This document shows, piece after piece, positions 34,961-51,046 of a DNA stretch of 51,225 bases. The stretch spans positions 119,682-170,906 of the forward strand of contig NZ_ML974130.1 of assembly GCF_004143485.2 (NCBI RefSeq), given 5' to 3'. Position 1 is the stretch's first letter. Each line of letters begins with the position of its first letter. The position numbers and the translations under genes were made by a program. This stretch comes from Halorussus amylolyticus (GTDB taxonomy: Archaea > Halobacteriota > Halobacteria > Halobacteriales > Haladaptataceae). The notes under the pieces were generated by a model. The model was not told the origin of the DNA. It did not search any database and was given only the letters and a program-made list of their open reading frames with translations.

Positions 34961-36154
34961 GTGGGTGACGTTGCCATTCCGCAAGCAGTCTTCGACGAGA
35001 CCGAGTACGAACGCCGAATAGAGCGAACCAAACAGCGAATGCGCGATGCGGACCTCGACGCGCTCGTGGTCTCGGACCCGGCCAACATGAACTACCTCAC
35101 CGGGTACGACGGGTGGTCGTTCTACGTCCACCAGGCCGTCCTCGTGACCCTCGACCGCGACGAACCGGTGTGGGTCGGCCGCGAGATGGACGCGAACGGC
35201 GCTCGCGCGACCACGAAACTCGGCGAGGAGAGCATCCGAGCGTACAGCGACGACCACGTCCACTCGCCGTACGACCTCCACCCGATGGACTTCTTCGCCG
35301 ACGAACTGGAGTCCCTTGGCGTCTCGGACGCGAAAATCGGCCTGGAGATGGACGCCTACTACTTCACCGCGAAGTCGTACACGCGCCTCCAGCAGAACCT
35401 CCCCGAAGCCACCTTCGAGGACCACACCCTGCTCGTCAACTGGGTCCGGGTGAAGAAGTCCGAACAGGAGTTGGAGTACATGCGCCAAGCCGCCCGCATC
35501 TCCGAGAACGCGATGCAGGCCGGACTCGACGCCATCGGCGAGGGCGTCCCCGAGTACGAGGCCGCCGAGGCCATCTACTCCGCGCTCATCGACGGCACCG
35601 ACGAGTACGGCGGCGACTACCCCTCCATCGTGCCGCTGATGCCGTCGGGCGACCACACCGGGACGCCCCACCTGACGTGGACCGACCGGCCCTTCGAGGA
35701 CGGCGACCCGGTCATCATCGAACTCTCGGGGTGTCGCCACCGGTACCACTCGCCGCTGGCCCGGACGACGTTCGTCGGCGACCCGCCCGCCGAGGTCCAA
35801 GAGACCGCCGACATCGTCATCGAGGGCATCGACGCCGCGCTTGACGCGGTCGAACCCGGCGTAACCGCCGAATCGGTCGAGAAGGCGTGGCGCGAGACCA
35901 TCGCGAAGTACGACGTGGAGAAGGAGGACCGAATCGGCTACTCGATGGGACTCGGCTACCCGCCGGACTGGGGCGAACACACCGCGAGTCTCCGACCCGG
36001 CGACGAGACGATTCTTGAGGAGAACATGACGTTCCACATGATTCCGGGCCTGTGGTTCGACGACTTCGGCGTCGAACTCAGCGAGACCTTCCGGGTCACC
36101 TCGACCGGCGTCGAAGTGCTGGCCGAGTTCCCGCGCGAACTGTTCACGGCGTAA
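34961..36154 (+). CDS. doeA: ectoine hydrolase-like M24 protein (DoeA/EutD)
   Basis: A 397-residue M24-family (creatinase/prolidase fold) enzyme. Segments that I associate with ectoine hydrolases, which open the ectoine ring to N-acetyl-diaminobutyrate, are present in order: SDPANMNYLTGYDGWSFYVH, SPYDLHPMDFFAD, GLEMDAYYFTAKSY, GGDYPSIVPLMPSGDHTGTP, PHLTWTDRPFEDGD, GYSMGLGYPPDWGEHTASLR and MTFHMIPGLWFDDFGVE. As in DoeA, the usual M24 metal ligands are mostly replaced. The GTG at 34961 fits the TATA spacing and gives a length close to the roughly 400 residues of bacterial DoeA; an ATG at 34910 lies upstream of the predicted mRNA end. Other M24 hydrolases (creatinase, aminopeptidase P) fit less well. 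Confidence 0.82.
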   Translation: MGDVAIPQAVFDETEYERRIERTKQRMRDADLDALVVSDPANMNYLTGYDGWSFYVHQAVLVTLDRDEPVWVGREMDANGARATTKLGEESIRAYSDDHVHSPYDLHPMDFFADELESLGVSDAKIGLEMDAYYFTAKSYTRLQQNLPEATFEDHTLLVNWVRVKKSEQELEYMRQAARISENAMQAGLDAIGEGVPEYEAAEAIYSALIDGTDEYGGDYPSIVPLMPSGDHTGTPHLTWTDRPFEDGDPVIIELSGCRHRYHSPLARTTFVGDPPAEVQETADIVIEGIDAALDAVEPGVTAESVEKAWRETIAKYDVEKEDRIGYSMGLGYPPDWGEHTASLRPGDETILEENMTFHMIPGLWFDDFGVELSETFRVTSTGVEVLAEFPRELFTA

Positions 36155-36188
36155 GAGCGTCCGGAACCACCGTCTGCCGGCCCCAAAA

Positions 36189-39100
36189 TTACCGACCCAC
36201 GGCCTCTGCGACCTTCTCGATGGGATGGGGTGGTTCTTCTCGCGTGCCTTCCCAATCGCCAAGTTGGGTGCGGCAGGACGCGCCGGGCGCGACCACGGTG
36301 TCGCCGTCGCTGTCCTCGACCTGCTCGAACAGAATCTCGCCGATGGCTCGGCTCATCGAGTAGTGTTCGGCCTCGTAGCCGAAACTTCCGGCCATGCCAC
36401 AGCACCCCGAGTCGAGGGCATCGACTTCGTAGCCCGCCGCGTCGAGGACGGCGGCGGCGTGGTGGTCCTTCTTGGTCGCCTTCTGGTGGCAGTGGCCGTG
36501 GTAGGTCAGCGTTTCCTCGGGCGCGGCCAAATCGAGCGACTCGGTCAGGTCGAACGCGTCGAGATATTCCATGATTCCGTACGTACTGGCCGCGACCCGG
36601 TTTGCGTCGGGCGTCTCGCCGAGCAGGTCGAGGTAGTCCGACTGGAACATGACCGCGTCGGAGGGTTCGACCAGCACCACGTCCCACCCGTCCTCGACTT
36701 TCGGCGCGAGCGCCGAGACGTTCGTCTCGGCGCGCTCACGCGACTTGTCGAGGAAGCCCTTCGAGTGGGCGGGGCGGCCGGTCGAGGTCACGCCCTCGGG
36801 GATGCGGACCCGGACGCCCGCGGCTTCGAGGACCCGGACCGCGGCTTTTCCGGCCTCGGGGTGGTTGTAGTTGGTGTACGCGTCCGGAAACAGCGCGACC
36901 GTTCGGGTCGCCTCGGACTCGGAGACGCGGGGGCCGCCCCGCTTCTCGAACCACTCGGTCAGACTCTCGCGGTGGAACGTCGGGAGGCTTCGCTCGCTGG
37001 CGATGCCGACCGTCTTTTCCATCACGAATCGCGCGCCCGGAAGCTTGCTCGCCCAGTTCGAGACGGGTGCGAGCGCCGACCCGATTGCGTTGAGACGGCC
37101 GACCTCGGCGAACAGGCGCTCCCGGACGCTCGCGCCGTTCTTCTCGTGGTTCGCGTGCTCGACCTCGGCCTTGAGCTTAGCCATATCGACCTCCGAGGGG
37201 CAGTCGCGGGCACAGCCCTTACAGCCGATGCAGAGGTCCATCACCTCGGCCATGAACTCGGTGTCGAACTGCTCGCCCGTCTCCGCGGGCTTCGCCCGCT
37301 CCGAGGAGGCGGCGTGCGCCGCCTCCCACTCCCCCGACATGGCCTGCCGGAGCAGATTCGCCCGGCCTCGCGTGGCGGTGCTCTCCTCGCCCGCCGCCCG
37401 GTAGGTCGGGCACATCACGCCACCGGTCGTTTCCTGCTCGCCGCGACAGCCGCCACAGCCGTGACAGAGTTCGACCATCCCCTGAAAGCCGTTCTCGTTG
37501 TCCCAGTCGAGCGCCGGGTCGAACCCCGCGTCGTGGGCGTACGAGTCGTCGTACCGGAGGTGTTCGGTCATGTCGTGGTCGCCACAGACGTTGCCGGGGT
37601 TGAGGAGCCAGTCGGGGTCGAACGCGGTCTTGAGGTCGCGGAACGCCTCCCAGAGGTCGTCGCCGTAGAGCTTGCGGTTCCACTGGGTTCGGGCGCGGCC
37701 GTCGCCGTGTTCGCCCGAGACGCTCCCGCCGAACTCGACCACCATGTCGGTCACCTCGTCGGCGATGGCGACCATGTCCTCGCGGTCGGCCGCGGTCTTC
37801 GTGTCCACGAGCGGCCTGACGTGGAGGACGCCCGGCCCGGCGTGGGCGTAGAACGCCGCGTCGAGGTCCCGGTCCTTCTCGGCGAGGAGCGACTGGAATC
37901 GCTCGACGAACTCCGGGAGGTGTTCGGGCGGCACCGCACAGTCCTCGATGAAACTGATGTGCTTCTCGTCGGAGGTCCGCGAGAGCAGGATGGGAAGCCC
38001 GGCCTTCCGGAGCTTCCAGAATTTGTCGCGCTCGCCCTCGTCGTGGGCCTCCAGCCCCGCGAACGCGAGCGTCTCGTCGGTGTCCGCGCGGTCGGCGGGC
38101 GGGGCGATTTCGGTGTCGGTCCCCGGAACCCTGTCGGCGAGGAGTCCGGCGGTCCGCTCTCGACCCTCGGCGTCGTCGTCGGCGTAGAACTCCACGAGGA
38201 GCGCCGCCTGCGCGCGCTCGGGGACGAGCGACGAGACTTCCTCGAAGTCGGCGGTGTCGCGCGCGAGTCCGAGCAGCACGTCGTCTATCAGTTCGACCGC
38301 CGCGGGGCCGTGTTCGAGGATGTGCTGAACGTCGGTCACCGCGTCGAGGACGCTCCCGTAGAACAACAGCGACACCGCCTTCGTCTCGGGGACGGGTTCG
38401 AGCGACAGTTCGGCCTCCGTGACGATTGCGAGGGTTCCTTCGCTCCCCGCGAGCAGGCGCGCCAGATTCACGGTACCCAACTCTGCCTCCTCCACGAGAA
38501 CGTCGAAGTTGTACCCCGAGACATTCCGCTTGAGGTCGGGGAATCGCTTCCGAACTTCGTCGGTCTCCTCGTCGAGAATCCGGACGACTTCGGCGTAGAT
38601 TCGGGCTTCGAGACCACCCTCGGGGTCGGCGCGCTCGCGGAGTTCTTCGACTTCCATCTCGCCGAAGGTGGTCACGGTGCCGTCTGCGAGGACGACCTCG
38701 CACTCCTCGACATAGGCGTCGGTCTTGCCGTACTTCAGGGAGTGCGCACCGGTCGAATTGTTCCCGATTGCACCGCCGACCGCGCTCCGATTTCCGGCGG
38801 CCGGGTCGGGTGCGAATTTGAGTCCGTGGGGTTCGAGTTCCGCGTTGAGTTCCGCGAGGACCGCCCCGGACTGCGCTCGCGCGCGAGCGCAGTCCGGGTC
38901 GATGCTCACCACGTCGTCCATGTGAGCCGTGAAATCGAGGACGACCGCTTCGTTGACGGCTTGGCCTGCGAGACTCGTGCCGCCGCCCCGGGGAAGCACC
39001 GGAATCTCACGCTCGGCGCAGTACGCCACGACCGCCGACACGTCGGCGGTCGTGGCCGGAAGCACGACCCCGATGGGCGTCATCTCGTAGGCGCTGGCGT

Positions 39101-39293
39101 CGGTCGCGTAGAGCTGTCGGGAGTAGCTGTCGAACCGGACTTCGCCGTCGATTCGCGCGCTGAGGTCGGCGACGAGGCCCGACCGGGCCTCGTCGCCGCC
39201 GACGTAGTCGTAGTCGGCTCTCGGGTCGCTCGCGGGGTCGCCCACGGAGCGACCATCCGGGCCGTCGTCCGTCGGCGTGTCCTGTGTCGCCAT
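36189..39293 (-). CDS. FAD-binding and Fe-S D-2-hydroxyacid/D-lactate dehydrogenase-type oxidoreductase
   Basis: A 1034-residue fusion. An N-terminal FAD-linked oxidase (about 60-570) has the FAD loop PRGGGTSLAGQAV (101-113) and GGSVSGEHGDGRART. Two cluster motifs follow: C610/C613/C616/C628 and C688/C691/C694/C698 (CIGCKGCARDCP). A C-terminal cysteine-rich CCG domain (about 750-1020) has GHCHQKA and DSGCCGMAGSFGYE. This domain order matches the YdiJ/GlcD-GlcF type of D-lactate or D-2-hydroxyglutarate dehydrogenases that pass electrons to the quinone pool. It starts 9 nt after the D-2-hydroxyacid dehydrogenase gene, so both may act on the same 2-hydroxyacid. The substrate is unproven. Confidence 0.88.
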   Translation of the reverse strand: MATQDTPTDDGPDGRSVGDPASDPRADYDYVGGDEARSGLVADLSARIDGEVRFDSYSRQLYATDASAYEMTPIGVVLPATTADVSAVVAYCAEREIPVLPRGGGTSLAGQAVNEAVVLDFTAHMDDVVSIDPDCARARAQSGAVLAELNAELEPHGLKFAPDPAAGNRSAVGGAIGNNSTGAHSLKYGKTDAYVEECEVVLADGTVTTFGEMEVEELRERADPEGGLEARIYAEVVRILDEETDEVRKRFPDLKRNVSGYNFDVLVEEAELGTVNLARLLAGSEGTLAIVTEAELSLEPVPETKAVSLLFYGSVLDAVTDVQHILEHGPAAVELIDDVLLGLARDTADFEEVSSLVPERAQAALLVEFYADDDAEGRERTAGLLADRVPGTDTEIAPPADRADTDETLAFAGLEAHDEGERDKFWKLRKAGLPILLSRTSDEKHISFIEDCAVPPEHLPEFVERFQSLLAEKDRDLDAAFYAHAGPGVLHVRPLVDTKTAADREDMVAIADEVTDMVVEFGGSVSGEHGDGRARTQWNRKLYGDDLWEAFRDLKTAFDPDWLLNPGNVCGDHDMTEHLRYDDSYAHDAGFDPALDWDNENGFQGMVELCHGCGGCRGEQETTGGVMCPTYRAAGEESTATRGRANLLRQAMSGEWEAAHAASSERAKPAETGEQFDTEFMAEVMDLCIGCKGCARDCPSEVDMAKLKAEVEHANHEKNGASVRERLFAEVGRLNAIGSALAPVSNWASKLPGARFVMEKTVGIASERSLPTFHRESLTEWFEKRGGPRVSESEATRTVALFPDAYTNYNHPEAGKAAVRVLEAAGVRVRIPEGVTSTGRPAHSKGFLDKSRERAETNVSALAPKVEDGWDVVLVEPSDAVMFQSDYLDLLGETPDANRVAASTYGIMEYLDAFDLTESLDLAAPEETLTYHGHCHQKATKKDHHAAAVLDAAGYEVDALDSGCCGMAGSFGYEAEHYSMSRAIGEILFEQVEDSDGDTVVAPGASCRTQLGDWEGTREEPPHPIEKVAEAVGR

Positions 39294-39302
39294 CGTCCCG
39301 AA

Positions 39303-40274
39303 TCAGTCCGTCCCCGGTGCGAGGATTTGATTCTCCAGTTCCTCGCCCGCGTCGAGGCGCGCGACGTTCTCGGCCACGATGTCGGCGAGTCGCTCCCAGT
39401 GGCGCGGGGTGTGGCCGCCGGTGTGAGGCGTGATGAGGCAGTTTTCGAGGTTCCAGAGCGGGTGGTCCTCGGGCAGGGGTTCGGGGTCGGTCACGTCGAG
39501 CGCCGCGCCCCGAATCTTGTTCGACCGGAGCGCCGACACCAGCGCGTCGGTGTCCACGATGGGACCGCGCGCGGTGTTGACGAGGACGGCGTCGGTCGGC
39601 AGGGTCGCCAGTTCCGCCTCGCCGACGAGACCGCGAGTCATGTCGTTGAGCGGGCACGCGACGACGACGTACTCGCTCCGGGCGAACGCGTCGTGGATGG
39701 CGTCCCCGTCGAATCCCACTACCTCGTCGGTCGGGCCGCCCTTCTCGGGGGTGTAGCGCACGCCGATAGTCTCTACTTCGAACCCCTGCAGGCGTTTTAC
39801 GACTTCCTGCCCGATGGAGCCGAGACCGACGACCGTCACCGTGCTGTCGGTGAGTTCGCCCGACTGGAAGTGCCGCCACTCACGGTTCTGCTTACGTCGC
39901 CACCCCTCGTGGAGTCGCCGGGCGAACGTGAGCATGTTGCCGATGGCCTGCTCGGCGATGCCGGGCGCGTGGATACCTCCGGCGTTCGTGACGCCGATTC
40001 CGCGCTCGGCGAAGGCGTCCATCGGAACGTGGTCGGTCCCGGCGAACGTGCAGGCGAACAGTTCGAGGCGCTCGGCCGCGGCGAGCGCCTCCTCCTCGAC
40101 GGTGATGCCGGTGACGACTCGCGCGGTTTCGAGGAGTTCGCGCTCCTGCTTCGGCGTGCGGGCCAGTTCGACGGTTCGGCCCGGAAGCCGGTCGCGCAGT
40201 TCGTCGGCGTACGATTCCATCGACAGGCCTTCCGTCCCCTCGCGGAGGACGACGACATCCGGATTCTCGGTCAT
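39303..40274 (-). CDS. D-2-hydroxyacid dehydrogenase (NAD-dependent)
   Basis: A 323-residue member of the D-isomer-specific 2-hydroxyacid dehydrogenase family. It has the NAD motif VTVVGLGSIGQEVVKRLQG, the catalytic Arg in VNTARGPIVDTDALVSAL, the Glu in LDVTDPEPLPEDHPL and the His in LITPHTGGHTPRHWE. I chose the ATG at 40274: the TATA-like element at 40333-40337 puts transcription start near 40311, downstream of the alternative ATG at 40319. It heads a two-gene unit with the FAD/Fe-S oxidoreductase. Relatives reduce hydroxypyruvate, glyoxylate or phosphoglycerate; substrate unknown. Confidence 0.88.
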   Translation of the reverse strand: MTENPDVVVLREGTEGLSMESYADELRDRLPGRTVELARTPKQERELLETARVVTGITVEEEALAAAERLELFACTFAGTDHVPMDAFAERGIGVTNAGGIHAPGIAEQAIGNMLTFARRLHEGWRRKQNREWRHFQSGELTDSTVTVVGLGSIGQEVVKRLQGFEVETIGVRYTPEKGGPTDEVVGFDGDAIHDAFARSEYVVVACPLNDMTRGLVGEAELATLPTDAVLVNTARGPIVDTDALVSALRSNKIRGAALDVTDPEPLPEDHPLWNLENCLITPHTGGHTPRHWERLADIVAENVARLDAGEELENQILAPGTD

Positions 40275-40332
40275 GCTTGTGAGTTCGCGTCTCGCGGACG
40301 CTGTGAATGTTCGACTCATGGCGAGTGGTGGA

Positions 40333-40349
40333 CTTAATCCTTTGTGTAC
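40333..40349 (-). promoter_or_regulatory. promoter of the hydroxyacid dehydrogenase gene with GTACACAAA motif
   Basis: On the minus strand this reads GTACACAAAGGATTAAG: the 9-mer GTACACAAA immediately before a TATA-like TTAAG. The distance between motif and TATA centre (about 14 nt) is the same as at the ectoine hydrolase promoter. The divergent M20 gene has its own TATA-like region near 40374. Confidence 0.5.
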
Positions 40350-40405
40350 CCGCTATCAACGGAAACCGTTTACAAATAAGTGGTTGGAGCGTGTCAGGCT
40401 CACCC

Positions 40406-41686
40406 ATGACGCCCACGATACGAGGCCGACTCACCGAGGTACGGCGCGACTTTCACCGGTATCCCGAACCCGCGTGGCGCGAGTTCTACACGACTCACGC
40501 GCTGGTCGAGCGACTCCGCGAAATCGGCGTGGACGAACTCGCCGTCGGAGCCGACGCCTACGACCCCGACGACCGGATGGCTGTCCCCGAAAACGACGAC
40601 ATCGAGGAATGGTTCGAGCGCGCACGCGAGCGCGGCGCGGACCCCGACCTCCTCGAAACGATGGCGGGCGGGAACACCGGGGCAATCGCGGTCCTCGACC
40701 GGGGCGAGGGTCCCGCGGTCGGTCTCCGGGTGGACATCGACGGCCTGTTCATCGAGGAGTCGGCCGACGACGACCACGTTCCCGCGGTCGAGGGCTTCCG
40801 GTCGGAAACCGACGGCACGATGCACGCCTGCGGCCACGACGCCCACATGACGTGGGGATTGGCGACCCTCGAAGCCATCAAAGACAGCGACTTCGAGGGG
40901 CGGCTGGTCGTCTTCTTCCAGCCAGCAGAGGAGGCCTCGGGCGGCGGTCATCCGATGGCAGAGAGCCGATTCGCCGAGGGGTTGGACTACTTCTTCGCGG
41001 TCCACGTCGGTCTCGACCACCCGACGGGCGAGGTGGTCGCTGGCATCGAGCGCCCGCTCGCGATGTGCCACGTGGACGCGACGATTCGGGGGACCTCCGC
41101 CCACGCCGGAAAAGCCCCGCAGGACGGCGACAACGCGATGCAGGCGCTCGGCACCGCCATCCAGAACGCCTACGGAATCCCGCGCCACGAGGACGGGATG
41201 ACCCGAGTCAACGTCGGCCGGGCGGAGTCGGGGACTTCGAGCAACGTCATCGCCGAGCGCGCCGACGTGGTCGCCGAGGCCCGGGGCGAGACCACCGAAC
41301 TCATGGAGTACGTGAAATCGCGGCTGACCAGAACGTTCGAGACCGCCGCCGAGATGCACGGCTGTGACGCCGAGGTCGAAATCGTGAGCGAGTCGCCCCG
41401 GGCCGACAGCGACCCCGAACTCGTGGACGTGATTGCGGGCGTGGCCGAGGGAGCGGCGGGCGTCGATTCGGTCGTCCCGACCGCCGACTTCGGCGCGAGC
41501 GAGGACGCTACCTTCCTGATGGAGCGCGTGCAGGACGAGGACGGTCTCGCGTCGTACCTCATCGTCGGTACCGACCACCCGACGAGCCACCACACTTCGA
41601 CCTTCGACGTGGACGAGCGGAGCCTCGAAACCGGTGTCACGGTGCTGACCGACTCGATACTCGCGGTCGCGGAGGACGGGCCGTGA
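40406..41686 (+). CDS. M20-family amidohydrolase
   Basis: A 426-residue zinc amidohydrolase of the IAA-amino-acid hydrolase/AbgB-like group. It has the metal residues in VGLRVDIDGLFIEES and MHACGHDAHMTWGLATLE, the catalytic Glu in FFQPAEEASGGGHPMAE, and the dimerisation-domain segment GTSAHAGKAPQDGDNAMQA. The ATG at 40406 follows a TATA-like TTACAAATAAG by about 30 nt. It overlaps the threonine ammonia-lyase start by 4 nt (GTGA). In the ectoine setting it is one of two candidates for N-acetyl-diaminobutyrate deacetylase; p-aminobenzoyl-glutamate or N-acyl amino acids are alternatives. Confidence 0.87.
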   Translation: MTPTIRGRLTEVRRDFHRYPEPAWREFYTTHALVERLREIGVDELAVGADAYDPDDRMAVPENDDIEEWFERARERGADPDLLETMAGGNTGAIAVLDRGEGPAVGLRVDIDGLFIEESADDDHVPAVEGFRSETDGTMHACGHDAHMTWGLATLEAIKDSDFEGRLVVFFQPAEEASGGGHPMAESRFAEGLDYFFAVHVGLDHPTGEVVAGIERPLAMCHVDATIRGTSAHAGKAPQDGDNAMQALGTAIQNAYGIPRHEDGMTRVNVGRAESGTSSNVIAERADVVAEARGETTELMEYVKSRLTRTFETAAEMHGCDAEVEIVSESPRADSDPELVDVIAGVAEGAAGVDSVVPTADFGASEDATFLMERVQDEDGLASYLIVGTDHPTSHHTSTFDVDERSLETGVTVLTDSILAVAEDGP

Positions 41687-42939
41687 CTACCGAGGAACTC
41701 CCGAGCGCGGAGTCGGTCGTCGCGCTCGCCGACATCGAGGACGCGCGCGACCGACTCGAAGGCGTGGCTCACCGCACGCCGCTCGACCGCTCGACCACGT
41801 TCGCGGAGATGAGCGGCGCGGCGTCGGTGGGTCTCAAACTGGAGAACGTCCAGCGCACCGGGTCGTTCAAGATTCGGGGCGCGTACAACAAGATGTCTCA
41901 GCTCTCGGCCGACGAGCGCGAGGCGGGCGTGGTCGCGTCGAGCGCGGGCAACCACGCCCAGGGGGTTGCGCTCGCGGGCGACCTGCTCGATATCGACACG
42001 ACAATCGTAGTTCCGGAGGTGACGCCCGCGGCGAAAATCGAGGCGACACGGGGCTACGGCGCGGAAGTCCTCGTCGAGGGCGACATCTACGAGGAATCGT
42101 ATCAGCGCGCGCTCGACCTCGCCGACGGCGAGGGGCTGACGTTCGTCCACCCGTTCGACGACGAGGCGATAATCGCTGGACAGGGGACCGTGGGGCTGGA
42201 ACTCACAGAGCAGTACCCCGAACTCGATACGGTTCTAGTCGCCATCGGCGGCGGCGGCCTGATTTCGGGCATCGCGACTGCGTTGACGGCCCGCGACTCG
42301 GACGTTCGCGTCGTCGGCGTCCAACCCGAGGGCGCGTATCACGCCAAGCCGTCGCTCGAAGCCGACGAGATACGCGAACTGCCGGGCGTCGATACGGTCG
42401 CCGAGGGCATCGCCGACACCCGACTGCTGGAGAAGACGTTCGCGGTCGCCCGCGAGCGCGTGGACGAAGTGGTCTCGGTGAGCGACCGCGAGATTGCGGC
42501 GGGGGTCGCGCTCCTCGCCGAGCGCGCCAAGACTGTCGCCGAGAGCGCGGGCGCGGCCCCCCTCGCTGCGCTCCTCTCGGGCGCGGTCGATGTCGAAGGC
42601 GAACACGTCGCGGTCGTCGTCTCGGGCGGGAATGTGGACCTCACCGAACACGCCGACCTCGCGCGGACCGGCCTCGCGGAACTCGGCCGGTACGCGACGG
42701 TCCGGCTGGCGGTCGCCGACTGGCCGACCAACCTCGGCGAAATCGCCGACACCGTCGAGGAGCGAGGCGCGGGGCTGGACGCGGTTCGGCGCGCGCGCCG
42801 AACCGCGGACGACGACCCAAACCGTGTTCCCGTAACCGCGAGCGTGACCGCGAGCGGGCCGGACCACCTCGAAGGGACGCTAGCCGCGCTCGATTCGCTC
42901 GACGGCGTGTCGGTTATCGACGCGGATTTCGAGGCGTAA
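41683..42939 (+). CDS. threonine ammonia-lyase
   Basis: A 418-residue PLP enzyme of the threonine/serine dehydratase family. The PLP lysine is in LENVQRTGSFKIRGAYNKM, the substrate loop is ASSAGNHAQGVALAG, and the PLP phosphate site is VLVAIGGGGLISGIATAL. The C-terminal 90 residues (from YATVRLAVADWPTNLGEIAD) form an ACT-like domain as in catabolic TdcB/IlvA-type archaeal enzymes. The start is a GTG overlapping the M20 stop. It is of interest that a threonine-dehydratase-like gene, EutB, accompanies hydroxyectoine use in bacteria, but EutB lacks this ACT tail, so ordinary threonine deamination to 2-oxobutyrate is the better call. Confidence 0.88.
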   Translation: MTTEELPSAESVVALADIEDARDRLEGVAHRTPLDRSTTFAEMSGAASVGLKLENVQRTGSFKIRGAYNKMSQLSADEREAGVVASSAGNHAQGVALAGDLLDIDTTIVVPEVTPAAKIEATRGYGAEVLVEGDIYEESYQRALDLADGEGLTFVHPFDDEAIIAGQGTVGLELTEQYPELDTVLVAIGGGGLISGIATALTARDSDVRVVGVQPEGAYHAKPSLEADEIRELPGVDTVAEGIADTRLLEKTFAVARERVDEVVSVSDREIAAGVALLAERAKTVAESAGAAPLAALLSGAVDVEGEHVAVVVSGGNVDLTEHADLARTGLAELGRYATVRLAVADWPTNLGEIADTVEERGAGLDAVRRARRTADDDPNRVPVTASVTASGPDHLEGTLAALDSLDGVSVIDADFEA

Positions 42940-42994: not shown

Positions 42995-43390
42995 ATGGAT
43001 GTTACACGACTCGACGAGACCGACGCCGAGCGACTCACCGGCCCGATTTTCGAGACGCAGGTCCACCGGAAGGCGGGGCCGTCCGAGGAATTCGGCGACC
43101 ACGGCGTCTCGATGAGCGAGATTTTCTTCGCGCCGGGCGAGCGAACCGCGATGCACGAACACACCGTCCGCCAGATACTCTACGTGACCGAGGGTGAGGG
43201 AATCCTCGCGAGCGAAGACGAGAAGAACCCCGTCTCGGAGGGCGACATCATCTCGATTCCGCCCGACGAACCTCACTGGCACGGCGCGAAGCCGAACGCG
43301 ACGTTCGCACACCTCTCGTTCGTGATTCTCGATGAGAACGGCGAGGGGTCGTTCGCGGTCGAGGAACCCGAAGGTCGTCGGTCGGAGTAA
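42995..43390 (+). CDS. single-domain cupin
   Basis: A 131-residue cupin with the metal motif GERTAMHEHTVRQILYVTEG and second motif ISIPPDEPHWHGAKPN. It begins MDVTRLDETDAERLTGPIF. A TATA-like CTATATC near 42968 lies 27 nt before the ATG. It belongs to the large (R)-mandelonitrile-lyase-like/DUF-type cupins whose members bind manganese or iron; no substrate can be stated. It is convergent with the next aminotransferase and lies 55 nt after the threonine ammonia-lyase. Confidence 0.82.
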   Translation: MDVTRLDETDAERLTGPIFETQVHRKAGPSEEFGDHGVSMSEIFFAPGERTAMHEHTVRQILYVTEGEGILASEDEKNPVSEGDIISIPPDEPHWHGAKPNATFAHLSFVILDENGEGSFAVEEPEGRRSE

Positions 43391-43418: not shown

Positions 43419-44783
43419 CTACGCGACGGACGTTCGCCCGGCCGCCTCGACCGCGTCGTTGAAGATGCCGACGCCGAGTTCGATTTCGCGCTCGGTCGAG
43501 TCGAGCGGCGGGAGGAGTCGGATGGTCTTGGTGCCACACCCGAGGGTGAGCAGGCCGCGCTTGAGCGACTCCTCGACCACGGCGTCCCGACGGTCTTTGG
43601 TGTCGAACTCCGCGGCGAGCATCAGGCCCTTCCCGCGCACGTCCACGAGGTGGTCGGGCGCGGCGTCCCGGAGCAGCTCCTTGGCCTGCCGACCCCGTTC
43701 GGTCGCGTTGTCGAGCAGGTCGTACTCCTCGATGGCTTCGAGGGTGAACGCGCCCTGCATCGACGCGAGCACGTCGCCGCCGCCGAACGTCGAACCCAGG
43801 CGGTTGGCCTCCGAGGGGAACACGTCCGAGCGCGAAATCGTGGCCCCGACCCGGAGCGCCTTCGCGCTGGCGATGACGTCGGGTTCGATGGGGTAGTGGT
43901 CCGACGCCCACATCTTCCCGGTCCGGCCCACGCCCGACTGAATCTCGTCCACGACGAGCGGGATGTCGTACTCCGAGGAGACGTCGCCGATTTCCTTCAT
44001 GAACTCCTCGTTCGGGAATCGGTAGCCGCCGACGCCTTGGACCGGCTCCACGACCAGGAAGCCGACCTCCTCGGGGTTGAGATGGCCGCCCTCGGGGGCG
44101 AGCGCGTTCCGGAGTTGGGAGCCGTTCGCGGTGAAAAAGCCACAATCACACGAGCCGTCGGCGGGGTCGTGGTCGCGGTCGTTGCAGAACGGCACCGTCC
44201 GAATGCCCGCGATTTCGGGGTAGTGGCGGGTGTACACCTCGTTCGACCGGGTGAGCGAGAGGGTTCCGAGCGTCCGGCCGTGGAAGCTGTCGTCGAACGT
44301 GAAGCCGTACTTCGCGGTCGGGTTTCGGTCGTACGCGATTTTCATCGAGTTCTCGACCGCCTCCGCGCCCGAGTTCGAGAGGAAGACGGTGTCCATCCCG
44401 TAGTGGCTCGACACGTCGGTCAGCTTGTCCATCAGGTGGCTCGACCCCGGGAACTCCGCGGTCTCCGGGTCGGGTCCCGCCCCGAAGTACATGTCTTGGC
44501 CCGCGATTTTCATGGGTTCGAGCAGGTCGAACTCCCGGAGCTTTCCGAGGACCTTCTCGTTCTGGTAGCCGAGCGGGGCGGCCCCGATGTGACACGTGAA
44601 ATCGAGGAGCACGTTCCCGTCCACGTCGGTCACGAACGGGCCGTCGGCGTCGGCGGTGACGTCCCAGACGAACTCGTGGGAGTACTCGCTCGGCGCGGCG
44701 TGTTCGCCGTGAAACGCCATCCACTTTTCGGCGTTCGGGCCGGGAAGTCCACCCGCGTCGGGTTCCGCGGTGTCCCTATCCAT
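43419..44783 (-). CDS. class III PLP aminotransferase (diaminobutyrate/GABA/lysine type)
   Basis: A 454-residue aminotransferase. Visible are FLSNSGAEAVENSMKIAYDR, DDSFHGRTLGTLSLTRSNEV, the cofactor aspartate in PLVVDEIQSGVGRTGKMW and the Schiff-base lysine in VIASAKALRVGATISR. A Cys-containing loop (DGSCDCGFF) is characteristic of one archaeal subgroup with lysine 6- or 4-aminobutyrate specificity. A TATA-like TTTTAATT lies about 30 nt before the ATG. It stands 54 nt downstream of the BCCT transporter gene. In ectoine breakdown an enzyme of this class would take diaminobutyrate to aspartate semialdehyde. Confidence 0.85.
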   Translation of the reverse strand: MDRDTAEPDAGGLPGPNAEKWMAFHGEHAAPSEYSHEFVWDVTADADGPFVTDVDGNVLLDFTCHIGAAPLGYQNEKVLGKLREFDLLEPMKIAGQDMYFGAGPDPETAEFPGSSHLMDKLTDVSSHYGMDTVFLSNSGAEAVENSMKIAYDRNPTAKYGFTFDDSFHGRTLGTLSLTRSNEVYTRHYPEIAGIRTVPFCNDRDHDPADGSCDCGFFTANGSQLRNALAPEGGHLNPEEVGFLVVEPVQGVGGYRFPNEEFMKEIGDVSSEYDIPLVVDEIQSGVGRTGKMWASDHYPIEPDVIASAKALRVGATISRSDVFPSEANRLGSTFGGGDVLASMQGAFTLEAIEEYDLLDNATERGRQAKELLRDAAPDHLVDVRGKGLMLAAEFDTKDRRDAVVEESLKRGLLTLGCGTKTIRLLPPLDSTEREIELGVGIFNDAVEAAGRTSVA

Positions 44784-44837: not shown

Positions 44838-46478
44838 TTAGTCGTCGTCGGCCGCCGGGCGATTGGACGCGCCCGACTGGCCGGTCTCGTCGGGCGACCC
44901 GATGAGCGTCGTCTGCTCCTGTAACAGGACCTGCCCGTAGTTCGCGCCGAACTCCCGAATGAGTCCGAGCGTCGCGAGCAAGCAGATGAACGCGAACGGC
45001 GCACCCGTGATGATGACGGCGTCTTGGAGCGTGCTCGCACCGCCGAGCGTCATCAGAATCGCGGCGAACATCCCGAGGACGACTCCCCAGAACACGCGGT
45101 TGATGCTCGACGGTCGGGCCTTCCCGCCGGTCGTCATCATCGACACAGCGAGCGTCGAGGAGTCCGCCGACGTGATGAAGAACGTCGTCACGAGCACCAT
45201 GAACGCCACCATGAAGACCGACCCGAACGGGAACGCTTCGAACAGCGCGAACCCGGCGACGGCCTCGCCGTGGGTCCCGATTGGACCGAGCAGGTCCGTG
45301 CCGTTGTGCTGTGACCACACCGCGGTCCCGCCGACGATGGTGAACCACGGAATCGTGGCGGCCGAGGTCGCACCGATACCGGTGAACGCGACCTCGCGGA
45401 CGGTCCGGCCCTTCGAGATGCGGGCGATGAACAGCCCCGCGAACGGCGACCACGAGAGCGCCCACGCCCAGTAGAAGACGGTCCAGGAGTTCATCCACTC
45501 CGTGGCGTCCGGGTTGCCCGCGCCCATCGGGCCAGCACCGGTAAAGAGGCTCATCGAGACGAAGTCGGTTATCATGCCGCCGAACGCCTGGGTTCCGAGC
45601 AGCACGAGGAATATCGACGGGCCGATGATGAACGTCGCAATCATGAGCGCGACGAACAGAATCATGTTGAAGTTCGAGAGCCGACGGATGCCCCTATCGA
45701 CTCCGAGGACCATCGAAATCGTGAACAGGAGGGTCATCCCGGTCACGACGAGGATGACACCGGTGTTGCCGAGGTCGATACCCCACTGGTAGTCGAGGCC
45801 CGTGATGAACTGGCTTCCGATGAAGCCGAGCGAGGTCGCCACGCCGCCGATGGTCGCGAACACCGCGATGATGTCCACGATTTTCGCGGCGACCCCGTCG
45901 AGGTTGTCCTTGCCGAGAATCGGCGTGAGCGCCGAGGAGACTCGGAGCGGGACGCTCTCGTAGTTGTACGCGAAGTAGCCGATTGCGATTCCGATGATGG
46001 TGAACACCGCGAGCTGGGGGAGCGCCCAGTGGAACAGCGTCTGCTGAACCGCGACGACCATCGCTTCGGGCGACCCGCTCGACACGTCGAACAGCGGCGA
46101 CGGGGAGTCGTAGTAGAATAGCGCCTCGGTCGGTCCCCAGAACACGACGCCCGCCGCGAACCCGGCGGAGTACAGCATCGCGAAGAACGACAGGAAGCTG
46201 TACTCGGGCGGTTCGTCGCCGAATTTGATGTTGCCCCACGGGCCGACGATGAGGAACAGCAAGAACAGGACGATGAGGAAGACGATGACCAACAGCGCCC
46301 AGTTGAGGTACTGATTCATCAGCGTGTTCCCGGCGTCGATACCGAACTGGACGAGACCGGGACTGATAAAGTAGGTCGCGATGAGACCGACCGTCAGGCC
46401 CGCCCCGAACAGGAACACGATTGGGTCGATTTCCTCGCGGAAACGGTCCACGGCACCCGAACCGCTCGCGTCGCTCAC
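44838..46478 (-). CDS. BCCT-family osmolyte transporter
   Basis: A 546-residue secondary transporter with 12 helices of the betaine/carnitine/choline family. The diagnostic segment is WTVFYWAWALSWSPFAGLF followed by ISKGRTVREV; BetP-type carriers usually have WAWWISW here, so one aromatic residue is replaced by Ala. Helix 3 reads SAGFAAGVVFWGPTEALFYY. The GTG at 46478 is chosen because the upstream open frame (to a GTG at 46640) is Arg-rich and unlike the acidic proteins around it; the longer 600-residue form cannot be excluded. It would import glycine betaine, ectoine or similar solutes and is the natural uptake system for this cluster. Confidence 0.9.
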   Translation of the reverse strand: MSDASGSGAVDRFREEIDPIVFLFGAGLTVGLIATYFISPGLVQFGIDAGNTLMNQYLNWALLVIVFLIVLFLLFLIVGPWGNIKFGDEPPEYSFLSFFAMLYSAGFAAGVVFWGPTEALFYYDSPSPLFDVSSGSPEAMVVAVQQTLFHWALPQLAVFTIIGIAIGYFAYNYESVPLRVSSALTPILGKDNLDGVAAKIVDIIAVFATIGGVATSLGFIGSQFITGLDYQWGIDLGNTGVILVVTGMTLLFTISMVLGVDRGIRRLSNFNMILFVALMIATFIIGPSIFLVLLGTQAFGGMITDFVSMSLFTGAGPMGAGNPDATEWMNSWTVFYWAWALSWSPFAGLFIARISKGRTVREVAFTGIGATSAATIPWFTIVGGTAVWSQHNGTDLLGPIGTHGEAVAGFALFEAFPFGSVFMVAFMVLVTTFFITSADSSTLAVSMMTTGGKARPSSINRVFWGVVLGMFAAILMTLGGASTLQDAVIITGAPFAFICLLATLGLIREFGANYGQVLLQEQTTLIGSPDETGQSGASNRPAADDD

Positions 46479-46621
46479 GTCCGAACACCCCGTTTGCGTC
46501 CCCCGTTCGGCTCTCGGGGCGACCCGGAACGCGACTGCGAACCGAGCCGATAGCCGATGCGTTTGCTCGTACTGTTCACCGCCCGACGCCGCCTTTCGCC
46601 GCCGTGAATCTCGGATTTCAT
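46475..46621 (-). CDS. possible short upstream ORF coupled to the BCCT gene
   Basis: A 48-codon frame (MKSEIHGGERRRRAVNSTSK at the start) whose TGA overlaps the BCCT GTG. It lies within the transcript predicted from TATA-like sequences near 46678-46691. Its third codon positions are mostly G or C, but the product is strongly basic, unlike haloarchaeal proteins. It may be a leader peptide or chance; the gap 46479-47019 holds no other gene. Confidence 0.25.
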   Translation of the reverse strand: MKSEIHGGERRRRAVNSTSKRIGYRLGSQSRSGSPREPNGGRKRGVRT

Positions 46622-46714
46622 GAGGTATCCTCTCACGCACCGTGTCGCACGGTGACGCACATCAGCCACTGTCGTGAAATATCGTGATAAATATTACGAT
46701 TATTGAGGCCGGCA

Positions 46715-46762
46715 GATACGGAATGTGTTTACTTATGGCGTTGCGATACGCTATGTGTTTAC
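46715..46762. promoter_or_regulatory. 18-nt direct repeats upstream of the BCCT promoter
   Basis: GATACGGAATGTGTTTAC (46715-46732) and GATACGCTATGTGTTTAC (46745-46762) are direct repeats with two mismatches and a period of 30 nt, about three DNA turns. They lie 25-70 nt upstream of the BCCT TATA-like region, on one face of the DNA, as expected for a pair of activator or repressor sites. Confidence 0.5.
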
Positions 46763-47019
46763 ACTCGAAACGGTAATTCGTGAGACGGAAGCGAGAAACT
46801 GACAATCTGTTTGTGGTTCTACTCGGCTCGACGCTTGGCGTTGTGCGCCGTCAGGAGTGCTGATTGGGGTACACACTAATTGTAGACTGGTCGCTCGTCT
46901 TATCGGACGGCGCTCGTGTCGTGGGAGCTACGCCCCTTCCGCGGCGTCCGTTGTCGGCGTCTCGCCGAATTTACGTGAGTATCGTAACTATTAATCCCGT
47001 CTGTATACAAATTCTGTGT

Positions 47020-47673
47020 ATGGTAGACGGCCCTGACGAGCGCGACTCCGAGCGCAGTCTCACCTACTCGGCCGACCGGCCCAGAGGAATCCTTACGCCG
47101 AGCGACCGGGAGTTTCTGCTCGGGCGCAAGACTGACTACACGGAACACTCGAAAAAGCAGAAGCGCAACCGAATCCGACACCGCATCCGGAACGCCATCC
47201 TCGATTTCACGATTCTGTTCGAACACCTCGAAGACCGCGACCGCGAGACCGTCTTCAACCCCGACGACGACGCGCGAGACGCGTACACGCAAGGCATCAT
47301 CGACCTGCTCGCGTTCCTCCATCTCGGCACGATGGGGTACTACACCCCGTTCAAGGACATGCTCTCGCAGGGGGTCAACAAGGCCGAACAGGAACTCGCG
47401 GGGTCAGACTACCGGATGGTGACCGTCGATTTCAACGTCGACCCGGTCGGCCAGATAGACGTAGACGAGGTCATCGACAAACTCGAATTCGGCGACTTCG
47501 GCGAGATTACTGACGAGGAGCTCTGGGCGTTCGTCAGACTGCTCTCCGAGTCCGACGAGTTCTCCGCGACCTCGATTCGCTCGGAGATGAAAGAGCAGAT
47601 GAGCGAGTTCATCGCGCAGGTCGACGCCGCGGCCGAACAGCGCGACGCGCGCGTCGAGGAGCTCAACGACTGA
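47020..47673 (+). CDS. conserved haloarchaeal protein of unknown function
   Basis: A 217-residue protein that begins MVDGPDERDSERSLTYSADR and has the striking segment RGILTPSDREFLLGRKTDYT followed by a basic stretch (KKQKRNRIRHRIRNAI) and an acidic, helical second half. I recognise the RGILTPSDREFLLG pattern as a widespread haloarchaeal family without an assigned function. The basic N-terminal region may bind nucleic acid. A TATA-like CTATTAATC near 46993 gives a leaderless mRNA at this ATG, so the longer upstream frame is rejected. It separates the BCCT and AstE-like genes and may not belong to the catabolic pathway. Confidence 0.75.
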   Translation: MVDGPDERDSERSLTYSADRPRGILTPSDREFLLGRKTDYTEHSKKQKRNRIRHRIRNAILDFTILFEHLEDRDRETVFNPDDDARDAYTQGIIDLLAFLHLGTMGYYTPFKDMLSQGVNKAEQELAGSDYRMVTVDFNVDPVGQIDVDEVIDKLEFGDFGEITDEELWAFVRLLSESDEFSATSIRSEMKEQMSEFIAQVDAAAEQRDARVEELND

Positions 47674-47727
47674 GCGCCGACCGGCCAGCGACTGAACGCT
47701 GACTGACCAACGACTGAGCGCCGACCG
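47664..47727. repeat. 20-nt direct repeat spanning a stop codon
   Basis: CAACGACTGAGCGCCGACCG occurs at 47664-47683, where it contains the stop codon of the preceding gene, and again at 47708-47727. CGACTGA words lie between the copies. It looks like a local tail duplication. Confidence 0.7.
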
Positions 47728-47812
47728 ACGCGATTCGCACCGTTCGCGCGCCGGAAATCGTCGCGTTGCCGGGACGGAATACACTTTGTCGCCCGCCGAG
47801 AGACGGACGTGT

Positions 47813-48877
47813 ATGAAAATCGGAACTGCCGAGTCACGAGCGGGCGAACTGTCCACCGGGTACGTCGAAGCGACCCAACTGCCGACCGGCGGTGCGGAGA
47901 AAATCCCTGTCGTCGTGGCCGAGGGCGTCGAGACCGGCCCGACGCTCTGGGTCGTCGGCGCGATTCACGCCGACGAGACGACGAGTCTGGCGGTCGCCCA
48001 CGACTTCGTGGACTGGCTAAACCCCGACGAACTCGCGGGCCGCGTGGTCTGCGTCCCGAACGCGAACCCGGCGGGCTTTCGGGTGAACGGTCGGGAGTCG
48101 TACTACCACGGCGACGACCCGAATCGCTATTTCCCGGCAGAAGACGCCGGCGGCGCGCGTCCTCGCAAGGTCCAGGAACTCATCAATCGGCGGCTGTTCG
48201 ACCGTATCACCGACTCCGCCGACGCCGTCGTCGCGCTCCACACGTCGTGGGTCGGGTCGGCGTCGTACGTCATCCAGCCCCGCGTCACCCACGGCGACGA
48301 CAGAACCGAGGACGAGGCCCGCGCGCTCGCCGACGAACTCACCGACCTGACCGAGGCGTTCGGCCTGCCGGTGGTGAATCAGTACAGCCAATCGCGCGAG
48401 ATTTCGGAGGGTCTCCACCGGTCGCTCTCGGGTGCCGCGGTGCGAGAGGCCGGAATCCCCGCCTTCACGCCGGAACTCGGCGGGCGGTACATCGTGGAGG
48501 ACGACGCCAGAGCGTACGGCGTCGAGGGCCTGAAGAACGTGGCTCGGACGCTCGAAATGGTCGCCGAATCGCCCCGGACCGACCCCCAACTCGAACCGCC
48601 GATACCCCACCCTCTGAAGCGGTCGGTCCACCCCCACACCGACACCGCGGGGGTCGTCCAGTATCGCGTCCGCGAAGGCGACGCCGTCGAAAAAGGGGAT
48701 GCAGTCGCCGACATCCTCACGCCCCACGGCGAGCGAAAGACGACCGTGCGAACCGAGGAGGACGGCTACGTCCTGAGTCGCCACGAGGGCGCGACCGCCT
48801 ACGAGAACGACCCGCTCCTCGACCTCGCGGTCCCCGACGACGACCCCCTCGTGGTTCCCCACGAGTCGGCGGAGTAG
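47813..48877 (+). CDS. AstE/AspA-family zinc deacylase (candidate N-acetyl-diaminobutyrate deacetylase)
   Basis: A 354-residue protein of the succinylglutamate desuccinylase/aspartoacylase family (M14-like). Zinc ligands H52 and E55 lie in GAIHADETTSLAVAHDFVDW, and H143 lies in VVALHTSWVGSA. NPAGFRVNGRESYYHGDDPN is the substrate-arginine region, and TPELGGRYIVED carries the likely catalytic Glu. The C-terminal 90 residues form a lipoyl-like beta domain (VREGDAVEKGDAVADI). DoeB/EutE, which deacetylates the ectoine hydrolase product, belongs to this family, but many haloarchaeal paralogues are of unknown substrate. The ATG at 47813 is preferred by TATA spacing (near 47783). Confidence 0.82.
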   Translation: MKIGTAESRAGELSTGYVEATQLPTGGAEKIPVVVAEGVETGPTLWVVGAIHADETTSLAVAHDFVDWLNPDELAGRVVCVPNANPAGFRVNGRESYYHGDDPNRYFPAEDAGGARPRKVQELINRRLFDRITDSADAVVALHTSWVGSASYVIQPRVTHGDDRTEDEARALADELTDLTEAFGLPVVNQYSQSREISEGLHRSLSGAAVREAGIPAFTPELGGRYIVEDDARAYGVEGLKNVARTLEMVAESPRTDPQLEPPIPHPLKRSVHPHTDTAGVVQYRVREGDAVEKGDAVADILTPHGERKTTVRTEEDGYVLSRHEGATAYENDPLLDLAVPDDDPLVVPHESAE

Positions 48878-48972
48878 AGAAGCGGCCAGTCGTCACTCCC
48901 TTCGAGCATGCTCTGTGAGCCGTTCGGCACGTCCGGGACAACGGTTTACTGTGCCACGACCCAAATGAGACC

Positions 48973-49152
48973 ATGACCGACGGCTGTACGTACTGCGGAA
49001 GTGACATCGAGCGCCACGACCCCGTGTTCGTGAACGAAGGCGCGAATGCACCCGGAAATCAGGCGGGTCGGTTCTGCAACTACGCGTGTCTCGCGGCGTA
49101 CATCGAGAGCGAGGAACTGACGTACGGCACCGCCTGTGAATGGGAGCCGTGA
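48973..49152 (+). CDS. small zinc-finger protein (DUF7576-like)
   Basis: A 59-residue protein, MTDGCTYCGSDIERHDPVFV, with CTYC and CNYAC knuckles (RFCNYACLAAYIESEEL) that form a treble-clef or zinc-ribbon fold; a further Cys lies near the end (TACEWEP). It matches a widespread haloarchaeal family of unknown function. A TATA-like TTTACTG 27-30 nt before the ATG supports leaderless expression. It lies between the AstE-like gene and the convergent ridA. Confidence 0.78.
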   Translation: MTDGCTYCGSDIERHDPVFVNEGANAPGNQAGRFCNYACLAAYIESEELTYGTACEWEP

Positions 49153-49243
49153 ACTCGCACCCCTTCGAAGCGCGACCGGAGCGTCTCGAAGGAGGGTCGT
49201 CACGAGGTAACGGGTGCGGACGGACGCCGAGGCGCGTCGAATC

Positions 49244-49633
49244 TCAGCCGAGATACGCCACGGCGTCCATCTCGACCCGAACGTCGCCCGGAAGCCGCGA
49301 CACCTCGACGCAGACCCGCGCCGGCGGGTCGCCGGGGAACTTCGCGCCGTAGGCCTCGTTCACCCGGTCGTAGTCGTCGAGGTCGGTCAGGTAGACCGTG
49401 ACTTTCACCACGTCGTCGAGGCCGTCGCCACCGGCCTCCGAGACCACCGCGGCGATGTTGTCGAGGACCTGCTCGGTCTGTGCTTCGATGTCCCCTTCGA
49501 CATCTTCGCCGGTCTCGGGGTCCACTGGTCCGTAGCCCGAGACGTGGAGCGTGTCGCCAGCCAAGACCCCCTGCGAGTAGGGGTTGTCGTTGCGCGGTGC
49601 GTCGTCCGTCACGATTCTGTCGGTGTTGCTCAT
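49244..49633 (-). CDS. ridA: RidA family enamine/imine deaminase
   Basis: A 129-residue member of the RidA/YjgF/UK114 family that hydrolyses reactive enamines and imines. The family pattern is visible in NPYSQGVLAGDTLHVSGYGP, VVKVTVYLTDLDDYDRVNEAYGAKFPG (read in parts) and ARVCVEVSRLPGDVRVEMDAVAYLG, which contains the substrate-binding Arg before a Val-Cys-Val-Glu-Val strand. It follows the aminotransferase by 33 nt on the same strand and has no promoter of its own that I can see. In this context it may clear 2-aminoacrylate-type products of PLP enzymes such as the threonine ammonia-lyase nearby. Confidence 0.9.
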   Translation of the reverse strand: MSNTDRIVTDDAPRNDNPYSQGVLAGDTLHVSGYGPVDPETGEDVEGDIEAQTEQVLDNIAAVVSEAGGDGLDDVVKVTVYLTDLDDYDRVNEAYGAKFPGDPPARVCVEVSRLPGDVRVEMDAVAYLG

Positions 49634-49666
49634 ACTGGAGTGTCTGGGAGTCGTTCGACGGTCGGT

Positions 49667-51046
49667 TCAGGCCGTCTGCTGTTCGGCCGCGACGTCCCGG
49701 ACCGCGTCGACGATAACGTCCATCGCGGTCTCGGCGAGGTCGTCGGTGATGACCAGCGGCGGGAGGAGTCGCAGGACGTTGCCGTGGCGGCCCGCCTTCC
49801 AGACGAGGACGCCGCGCTCGTAGCACAGGTCCTGAATCGCGGCGACGGTGTCGCTGTCCGGGTCGCCGTTCTCGTCCACGAACTCCGCGCCGACGAACAG
49901 TCCCTTTCCGCGAACCTCGCCGATGCTGCCGGTCTCGTCGCCGACGGTGCGGAGTCGGTCGCGGATGTACTCGCCGACCGCCCGGCCGTGAGCCAGCAGG
50001 TCGTGGTCCTGAATGTACTCGATGGCCCGCGTGCCCGCGCGCATTGCGACGACGTGCCCGCGGTAGGTGCCCGCGTGGTCGCCCGACCCCCACGTGTCGA
50101 GGTCGTCGTGGTACATCATCGCCGACAGCGGGAAGCCGACGCCGCCGAGCGCCTTCGCGGTCGTCATCGCGTCGGGGGTCACGTCGTACCACTCGCTCGC
50201 CCACCACTGGCCGGACCGGCCGAGTCCGCTCTGAATCTCGTCGAACACGAGGAGTACGTCGTTGTCGTCGGCGATGTCGCGGAGTCCCTGTAAGAATCCC
50301 TCCGGGGGCGTGATGATGCCGCCCTCGCCCTGAATCGGCTCGACGAAGATTCCGGCCGGGTTGGCGAGTCCGCCGTAGGGGTCTTCGAGAATCGCCCGGA
50401 CCTCTTCGAGCGCGTGGTCGACCGCTTCCTGAGGCGCTTTGTCCTGGCCGAACGGGTGGGGGTACGGCGCGTGGACAACGTCCGAGAGCAGGGGGGTGTA
50501 GCTGTCCTTGAACCCCTTGTTGCCGGTGAGGCTCATCGCGCCGCTGGTCGCGCCGTGGTACGCGCCGCGGAACGCGATGAGTCCGTCGCCGCCGGTGTTG
50601 TACTTTGCGAGCTTGATGGCGGCCTCGATGGCGTCGCTTCCGGTCGGGCCGCCGAAGACGACCTTGTTGTTGCCCCGGAGCCCGCCGGGCGCGATTTCGT
50701 CGAGCTTCTCGATGAGCTCGAGTCGCGCCTCGGTCGGGAAGTCCACGGTGTGAACGAGCTTGTCGGCCTGCTCGTGGACCGCGTCCATCACGTAGGGGTT
50801 CGCGTGGCCGACGTTCAGCACGCCGATGCCCGCGAACATGTCGATGAAGGTGTTGCCGTCGGCGTCGCGGACGGTCGCGCCCTTCCCGGATTCGAACGCG
50901 ACCGGGATGTCCTCGGGGTACGCGACCGCGCTGCTGTCGATTTCGCGCTGTTTTTCGAGTAGCTTCTGCGATTCGGGTCCGGGAACCGCCCCGACGTCGG
51001 GTGCGTCGTCGTAGTGCAGTTCGTCTATCGGTGGTCCAGCCGTCAT
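49667..51046 (-). CDS. class III PLP aminotransferase (candidate diaminobutyrate transaminase)
   Basis: A 459-residue aminotransferase. Visible are [55 protein letters not shown], the cofactor aspartate in [18 protein letters not shown] and the PLP lysine in [17 protein letters not shown]. The GxxxxNVGHA N-terminal pattern is shared with 4-aminobutyrate and 2,4-diaminobutyrate transaminases (EctB/DoeD-like). The ATG at 51046 lies 27-28 nt after a TATA-like ATATTTAAG (51071-51079), so longer versions to 51136 are rejected. It leads ridA. With the ectoine hydrolase homologue it would convert diaminobutyrate to aspartate semialdehyde, by inference. Confidence 0.88.

Follow-up and report, generated by a model that had tools for sequence, protein, structure and literature searches.

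A gene island of the haloarchaeon Halorussus amylolyticus probably allows an ectoine-type osmolyte (ectoine, 5-hydroxyectoine or both) to be taken up and broken down by a non-canonical enzyme set, a reading to which we assign a probability of roughly 0.6. The island encodes an M24-family protein whose nearest characterised relative, by HMM, PDB sequence and fold, is the ectoine hydrolase DoeA, and it is a conserved, patchily distributed predicted catabolic unit with a BCCT transporter. We computed the DoeA-like fold and catalytic core of the M24 protein, its linkage to an M20 amidohydrolase and a D-2-hydroxyacid dehydrogenase (D2HDH), and the absence of the deacetylase DoeB. Of the ectoine island proposed in an earlier note on this DNA, the DoeA-like M24 protein and the conserved unit with a BCCT transporter stand and the casting of an AstE/AspA-family protein as DoeB does not; DoeA-like M24 proteins are also found near other predicted chemistry.

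Haloarchaea mostly make no ectoine and live among ectoine-making bacteria. In 2018 ectoine consumers were stated to be restricted to Proteobacteria (PMC5924519), and in 2023 the Halobacteria of a metagenome were reported with all ectoine degradation genes (PMC10434110). The available text of an AEM report of 2026 (PMC13188858) describes a Bacillus EutD query that gave more than 100 archaeal matches at over 55% identity, lying in conserved clusters alongside an aminopeptidase, an aminotransferase and a BCCT transporter; according to the same text the assignment came from BLAST and gene neighbourhood, and experimental confirmation was called necessary. The earlier note, aware of no characterised archaeal pathway, missed these putative clusters in Halobacteria, already in print (PMC13188858; PMC10434110). 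The general claim is therefore published as putative, and what is added here is the replacement of the deacetylase, the invariant D2HDH and measured linkage. Ectoine traces have also been found in two haloarchaeal isolates without the biosynthesis genes (PMC12650772), an observation compatible with uptake.

The locus in Halorussus amylolyticus

The window, the whole stretch of 51,225 nucleotides that was analysed, is part of a 785 kb contig in a 3.8 Mb haloarchaeal genome whose nearest relatives are Halorussus species. The genes picked out by the earlier note, encoding M24, BCCT, AstE/AspA and M20 proteins, two class III aminotransferases (AT3a and AT3b) and RidA, are all intact. Pfam and NCBIfam profiles bring to the same stretch several genes that it had not listed: an FAD/Fe-S protein, D2HDH, a threonine ammonia-lyase family enzyme, a small cupin (42995-43390, plus strand; PF07883, with the mandelonitrile lyase model below its cut-off) and orf269 (46864-47673, plus strand), a conserved gene that adjoins the BCCT gene and is without a Pfam or NCBIfam match. 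Copies of orf269 with 52-88% identity occupy the same place beside BCCT in several loci. The end of the island lies close to the edge of the window, because an FAD-dependent oxidoreductase, a PQQ-repeat protein and then arginyl-tRNA synthetase and eRF1 come beyond AT3b.

The M24 protein resembles ectoine hydrolase

The M24 protein (34961-36154, plus strand; GTG start, 397 residues), the proposed opener of the ectoine/hydroxyectoine ring, scores 469 bits (E 1e-140) on TIGR02993, the NCBIfam model for DoeA, and 99 bits on the archaeal PepQ model; the likeness to DoeA/EutD that had first drawn attention to the locus is far beyond chance. The score is short of the TIGR02993 equivalog cut-off of 613 bits, and two further haloarchaeal copies score ~458. 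The best PDB sequence match is Halomonas elongata DoeA (6twk, 384 bits), followed by prolidases at 102 bits. A predicted model built from an alignment (pLDDT 90.6), used in place of a discarded single-sequence model (pLDDT 44), matches the DoeA structures 6yo9/6twk over its full length with Z 53, 45-46% identity and an rmsd of 1.5-1.7 Å, and the next fold match is creatinase.

Haloarchaeal and bacterial DoeA-type proteins are invariant at more than 50 alignment positions. Among these are H237, E254, R261, R324, Y327, H359 and E375 of the M24 protein, which correspond to H238, E255, R262, R326, Y329, H361 and E377 of DoeA, and the N-domain motif GYDGWSFYVHQ is identical in the H. elongata enzyme. 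The five metal ligands of prolidase and aminopeptidase P (D, D, H, E, E) are not kept in the M24 protein: as in DoeA, the positions of D, H and E are changed, here to E254, Y327 and H359. From its fold and catalytic core the protein is predicted to be a metal-independent hydrolase of the DoeA/EutD type. Other M24 paralogues in the same genome stand closer to prolidase.

Two trees place the haloarchaeal M24 clade beside, not within, the proteobacterial EutD clade (EutD clade support 100/100). A wider, fully supported clade comprises the haloarchaeal M24 proteins, EutD, the Priestia M24 protein, the M24 proteins of M24-M20 pairs and a Shinella M24 protein from a locus with EhuABCD and sarcosine oxidase; branching order within it has weak support, and in an AU test a clade uniting EutD with the Priestia and haloarchaeal proteins was not rejected (p 0.075). 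The kinship with DoeA/EutD for which the earlier note had looked to a tree is seen in the wider clade and not in the proteobacterial one. Because the trees set it outside the latter and its profile score lies below the cut-off, membership of the M24 protein in DoeA/EutD is not established.

Among 34 EutD-diagnostic positions, the window M24 protein shares 20, the Priestia protein 23 and Shinella SOX1 20, with Tsukamurella DoeA2 and prolidases at 0, zeros that follow from how the positions were picked. At position 340, directly following E339, EutD, SOX1 and XP1 have R, whereas the proteins of haloarchaea, Priestia and ShinellaH4/L061a have H, and the groups with H have M20, not AstE, as partner hydrolase. 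Despite the DoeA-like fold and catalytic core, sequence alone leaves the M24 substrate unfixed: the core is common to the whole DoeA-like family and therefore does not fix it, and a similar Shinella M24 protein sits with sarcosine oxidase.

Several bacterial and haloarchaeal loci place DoeA-like M24 genes in other surroundings. The nearest bacterial M24 protein, at 56-57% identity, is that of Priestia, in a cluster ordered PucR-EutB-M24-EutC-M20-homoserine dehydrogenase-aldehyde dehydrogenase. On a Shinella plasmid (L090:7992-14816), a DoeA-like M24 gene (48.6% identity to the window M24) is followed by a second M24 gene and sarcosine oxidase subunits and adjoins annotated EhuABCD genes, perhaps a pathway for creatine-like compounds or methylated amines that has been annotated as ectoine. 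M24-M20 pairs without DoeB are seen in bacteria (L092:7995-10356; L061:3952-6250 and 11492-13859; L062:8933-11158), sometimes twice per locus, as a recurring two-gene hydrolase module. In Halomarina, a further DoeA-like M24 protein (L085:28890-30071; 55-58% identity to haloarchaeal M24) at the base of the haloarchaeal clade is encoded beside IclR and aldehyde ferredoxin oxidoreductase genes. A Haladaptatus plasmid (L082:10774-19083; also L030 and L038) carries a second M24 gene with an IclR regulator, a membrane protein, an O-acetylhomoserine sulfhydrylase family enzyme and a remote EutA relative (111 bits against a cut-off of 318), a separate arrangement that may be hydroxyectoine-related.

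Conservation and linkage among haloarchaea

We surveyed 155 haloarchaeal genomes and found M24 in 53, representing 22 of 59 genera. M20 of the cluster type, defined by at least 61% identity with a threshold set after the list was seen, is present in exactly these 53 genomes and absent from the remaining 102 (Fisher P 9e-43, with related genomes being non-independent draws), and the two genes lie no more than 20 kb apart in 48 of the 53; clustering of the island as first perceived is far beyond chance. D2HDH is found beside M20 in every M24-positive genome at a median distance of 1.1 kb, and only nine other genomes have it. AT3a is likewise present in all 53, in 51 of them within 20 kb of M20.

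A second set comprised 55 related haloarchaeal loci, some of them incomplete at contig or retrieved-region ends. D2HDH and M20 were each present in 48 of these, the ammonia-lyase in 37, AT3a in 33, BCCT in 25 and the FAD/Fe-S protein in 22. Gene order is usually the same, the adjacency of BCCT and AT3a is conserved, and RidA is paired with AT3b in relatives.

The proposed deacetylase step

Two candidate deacetylases had been named in the earlier note, and only one is retained. The M20 amidohydrolase (40406-41686, plus strand, ATG at 40406) scores 251 bits on TIGR01891 (cut-off 154) and accompanies M24 in 53 of 53 genomes; on the DoeB2 model NF038260 it reaches 103 bits against a cut-off of 550. 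The AstE/AspA family protein (47813-48877, plus strand) was rejected as DoeB/EutE and is probably a bystander or accessory: it scores 60 bits on TIGR02994 (cut-off 403), lies within 20 kb of M24 in 6 of the 53 genomes and occurs in 13 genomes without M24. True DoeB, sought with TIGR02994, is absent from all 155 haloarchaeal genomes, and the same search recovered it in three of three bacterial control records. Since AstE/AspA is not core, DoeB is absent and M20 is invariably found with M24, M20 and not AstE/AspA is the likely N-acetyl-diaminobutyrate deacetylase. The weak match to the DoeB model, 43 bits against DoeB structures and a position within 13 kb of M24 favour a canonical hydrolase-deacetylase pair with AstE/AspA as DoeB, as first proposed, but its scattered occurrence and the constancy of M20 make that pairing very unlikely.

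An M20-family deacetylase of the DoeB2 type has a precedent in Tsukamurella, where it is annotated beside DoeA, an aminotransferase and SSADH (doeB2-AT-doeA-SSADH). In a methanotroph the doeA-doeB pathway has been shown in vivo with a DoeB that shares only 22% identity with the H. elongata protein (PMC7192451).

Transport, amino nitrogen and carbon

The BCCT transporter (44838-46640, minus strand), proposed to take up the osmolyte, has a full-length domain: the TIGR00842 profile is covered from 2 to 450 of 452 positions at 393 bits, slightly under the subfamily cut-off of 408, and the glycine-betaine BCCT model gives 392 bits (cut-off 650). Adjoining it is AT3a (43419-44783, minus strand; NCBIfam profile), a proposed (diamino)butyrate transaminase. 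AT3b (49667-51136, minus strand; the true start may be downstream, near 51046) is closer to diaminobutyrate transaminases than AT3a, with 343 bits on the dat model TIGR00709 (cut-off 402), and shares 35% identity with the aminotransferase encoded in the Tsukamurella doeA/doeB2 cluster. The RidA imine deaminase (PF01042) lies at 49244-49633 on the minus strand. In 23 of the 55 loci the glutamate dehydrogenase gene gdhB directly follows M24.

An aspartate-semialdehyde dehydrogenase was said in the earlier note to be missing, and indeed neither an aldehyde dehydrogenase nor an aspartate-semialdehyde dehydrogenase (DoeC) was found in the window; the island lacks canonical DoeB, DoeC and EutC. Four aldehyde dehydrogenases are encoded elsewhere in the genome, on other contigs or at a distance, the best sharing 49% identity with the SSADH encoded in the Tsukamurella doeA cluster. 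A possible substitute for the absent aspartate-semialdehyde dehydrogenase is aldehyde ferredoxin oxidoreductase (AOR), which lies beside the second aminotransferase in 9 of the 10 loci that have it (examples are L085:26299-27960, L083:31812-33185, where the gene is incomplete, L012 and L016, among others). It was rejected as a member of the H. amylolyticus island itself, where the orthologue (75%) is on another contig.

The threonine ammonia-lyase family PLP enzyme (41683-42939, plus strand; TIGR01127 405 bits, cut-off 379) overlaps M20 by 4 bp. Its identity as the hydroxyectoine dehydratase EutB is not supported, with 249 bits against the TIGR02991 cut-off of 413 and paralogues in its own genome equally close to EutB; it could act on a 3-hydroxylated intermediate. 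Elsewhere in the genome (G000:C7:175023-177238), a second M20 gene (63%) has a threonine ammonia-lyase-like neighbour (37%), an echo of the pair in the island.

D2HDH (39303-40319, minus strand; PF02826/PF00389), of the NAD(P)-dependent family, has no place in the canonical route from ectoine to aspartate, and its invariance suggests a non-canonical diaminobutyrate route. Next to it is the FAD/Fe-S protein (36189-39293, minus strand), a predicted D-2-hydroxyglutarate dehydrogenase of YdiJ-like type (GlcD and GlpC fusion, with FAD oxidase and Fe-S domains) that scores 550 bits on NF049975 (cut-off 1350). Bacterial ectoine clusters reportedly include hydroxyacid dehydrogenase and haloacid dehalogenase genes whose role is undefined (PMC5924519), and the same accessory types are found in haloarchaeal loci as D2HDH and, in Halopiger, a haloacid dehalogenase.

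Proposed pathway and alternative readings

In the scheme that we propose, of which we infer the substrate and every reaction, the osmolyte would come from bacteria in the same brine and be imported by BCCT. The M24 protein would open the ring in a metal-independent reaction to give an N-acetyl-diaminobutyrate, which M20, and not AstE/AspA, would deacetylate. Amino nitrogen would pass to 2-oxoglutarate through a class III aminotransferase (AT3b, AT3a or both), with GdhB recycling the glutamate in many relatives, and carbon would reach central metabolism via aldehyde oxidation by an enzyme encoded outside the window, an aldehyde dehydrogenase or AOR.

This scheme is supported by DoeA as the closest characterised protein, by the more than 50 invariant positions, by the failure to find DoeB in 155 genomes, by the Priestia relatives with EutB, EutC, M20 and aldehyde dehydrogenase, by the joint presence of M24, M20, D2HDH and AT3a in 53 of 53 genomes and by GdhB and AOR linkage, as well as by the Tsukamurella deacetylase, the accessory types recurring in bacterial ectoine clusters, the EutA relative beside the second Haladaptatus M24 and the same assignment in the available text of PMC13188858. 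Counting against it are the sub-cut-off M24 score, a tally of 20 of 34 positions equal to that of Shinella SOX1, exclusion from the EutD clade, the missing DoeB, DoeC and EutC, an ammonia-lyase no nearer to EutB than its paralogues and the unplaced D2HDH. The M24 protein might instead belong to a wider DoeA-like family and act on another amidine, N-acyl or creatine-like osmolyte that the island degrades, an alternative that we consider unlikely although it carries real weight: equally DoeA-like M24 proteins are encoded beside EhuABCD, a second M24 and sarcosine oxidase, beside M20 only or beside unrelated enzymes, the catalytic core is family-wide, and position 340 separates EutD from the M20-paired proteins. 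The nearest bacterial relatives by identity, however, are in eutB/eutC clusters, the GYDGWSFYVHQ motif is that of H. elongata DoeA, and a joint clade of EutD with the Priestia and haloarchaeal proteins is not rejected by the AU test. That M24 and M20 are ordinary peptidases in an island for peptide or amino-acid use is very unlikely, for although both come from peptidase superfamilies and are annotated by NCBI as metallopeptidase and amidohydrolase, the M24 metal-site residues depart from those of prolidases as DoeA's do, prolidase bit scores are ~4-fold lower and the paralogues nearer prolidase are located elsewhere in the genome.

Within the ectoine reading, a doubtful extension drawn by chemical reasoning from gene content only is that haloarchaeal breakdown follows a D-2-hydroxyacid route and not one via aspartate. 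Diaminobutyrate, or 3-hydroxydiaminobutyrate by way of the ammonia-lyase and RidA, would give 4-amino-2-oxobutanoate, which D2HDH would reduce to D-4-amino-2-hydroxybutanoate; D-malate would arise from this through the second aminotransferase together with an aldehyde oxidase, and be oxidised to oxaloacetate by the FAD/Fe-S dehydrogenase. The recurrence of two aminotransferases, D2HDH, GdhB, AOR, RidA and the FAD/Fe-S enzyme would then be explained.

If ectoine-type osmolytes are indeed the substrate, a third of the sampled haloarchaeal species would recycle bacterial osmolytes, with a deacetylase and downstream steps unlike those of Proteobacteria, and a testable link in brine carbon and nitrogen flow would be in hand. 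Experimentally shown ectoine use would extend past Bacteria, the confirmation named as needed in the available text of PMC13188858.

Comparison with known systems

H. elongata DoeA/EutD (6twk, TIGR02993) shares with the haloarchaeal M24 protein the full-length fold at 45-46% identity, the catalytic core and the altered metal-site residues; the haloarchaeal protein differs in its sub-cut-off score, its position outside the proteobacterial clade, 14 of the 34 diagnostic positions and H in place of R after E339. Creatinase (1chm) is also a metal-independent hydrolase of the M24 fold, but it is 23% identical to the window M24 and has a lower fold score (Z 41). The Tsukamurella plasmid doeA/doeB2 cluster (NF038260), taken as representative of such clusters, resembles the island in combining an M20-family deacetylase, a DoeA-type hydrolase and a class III aminotransferase, whereas its DoeA is 35% identical and far off in the tree, and the haloarchaeal M20 reaches only 103 bits on the DoeB2 model. 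The putative EutD clusters of Bacillota (Priestia) and Halobacteria in the available text of PMC13188858 concern the same protein group with BCCT, aminotransferase and peptidase-family genes nearby; that text names an aminopeptidase, an aminotransferase and BCCT, whereas here the linkage of M20, D2HDH, GdhB and AOR is measured and AstE/DoeB is excluded as core.
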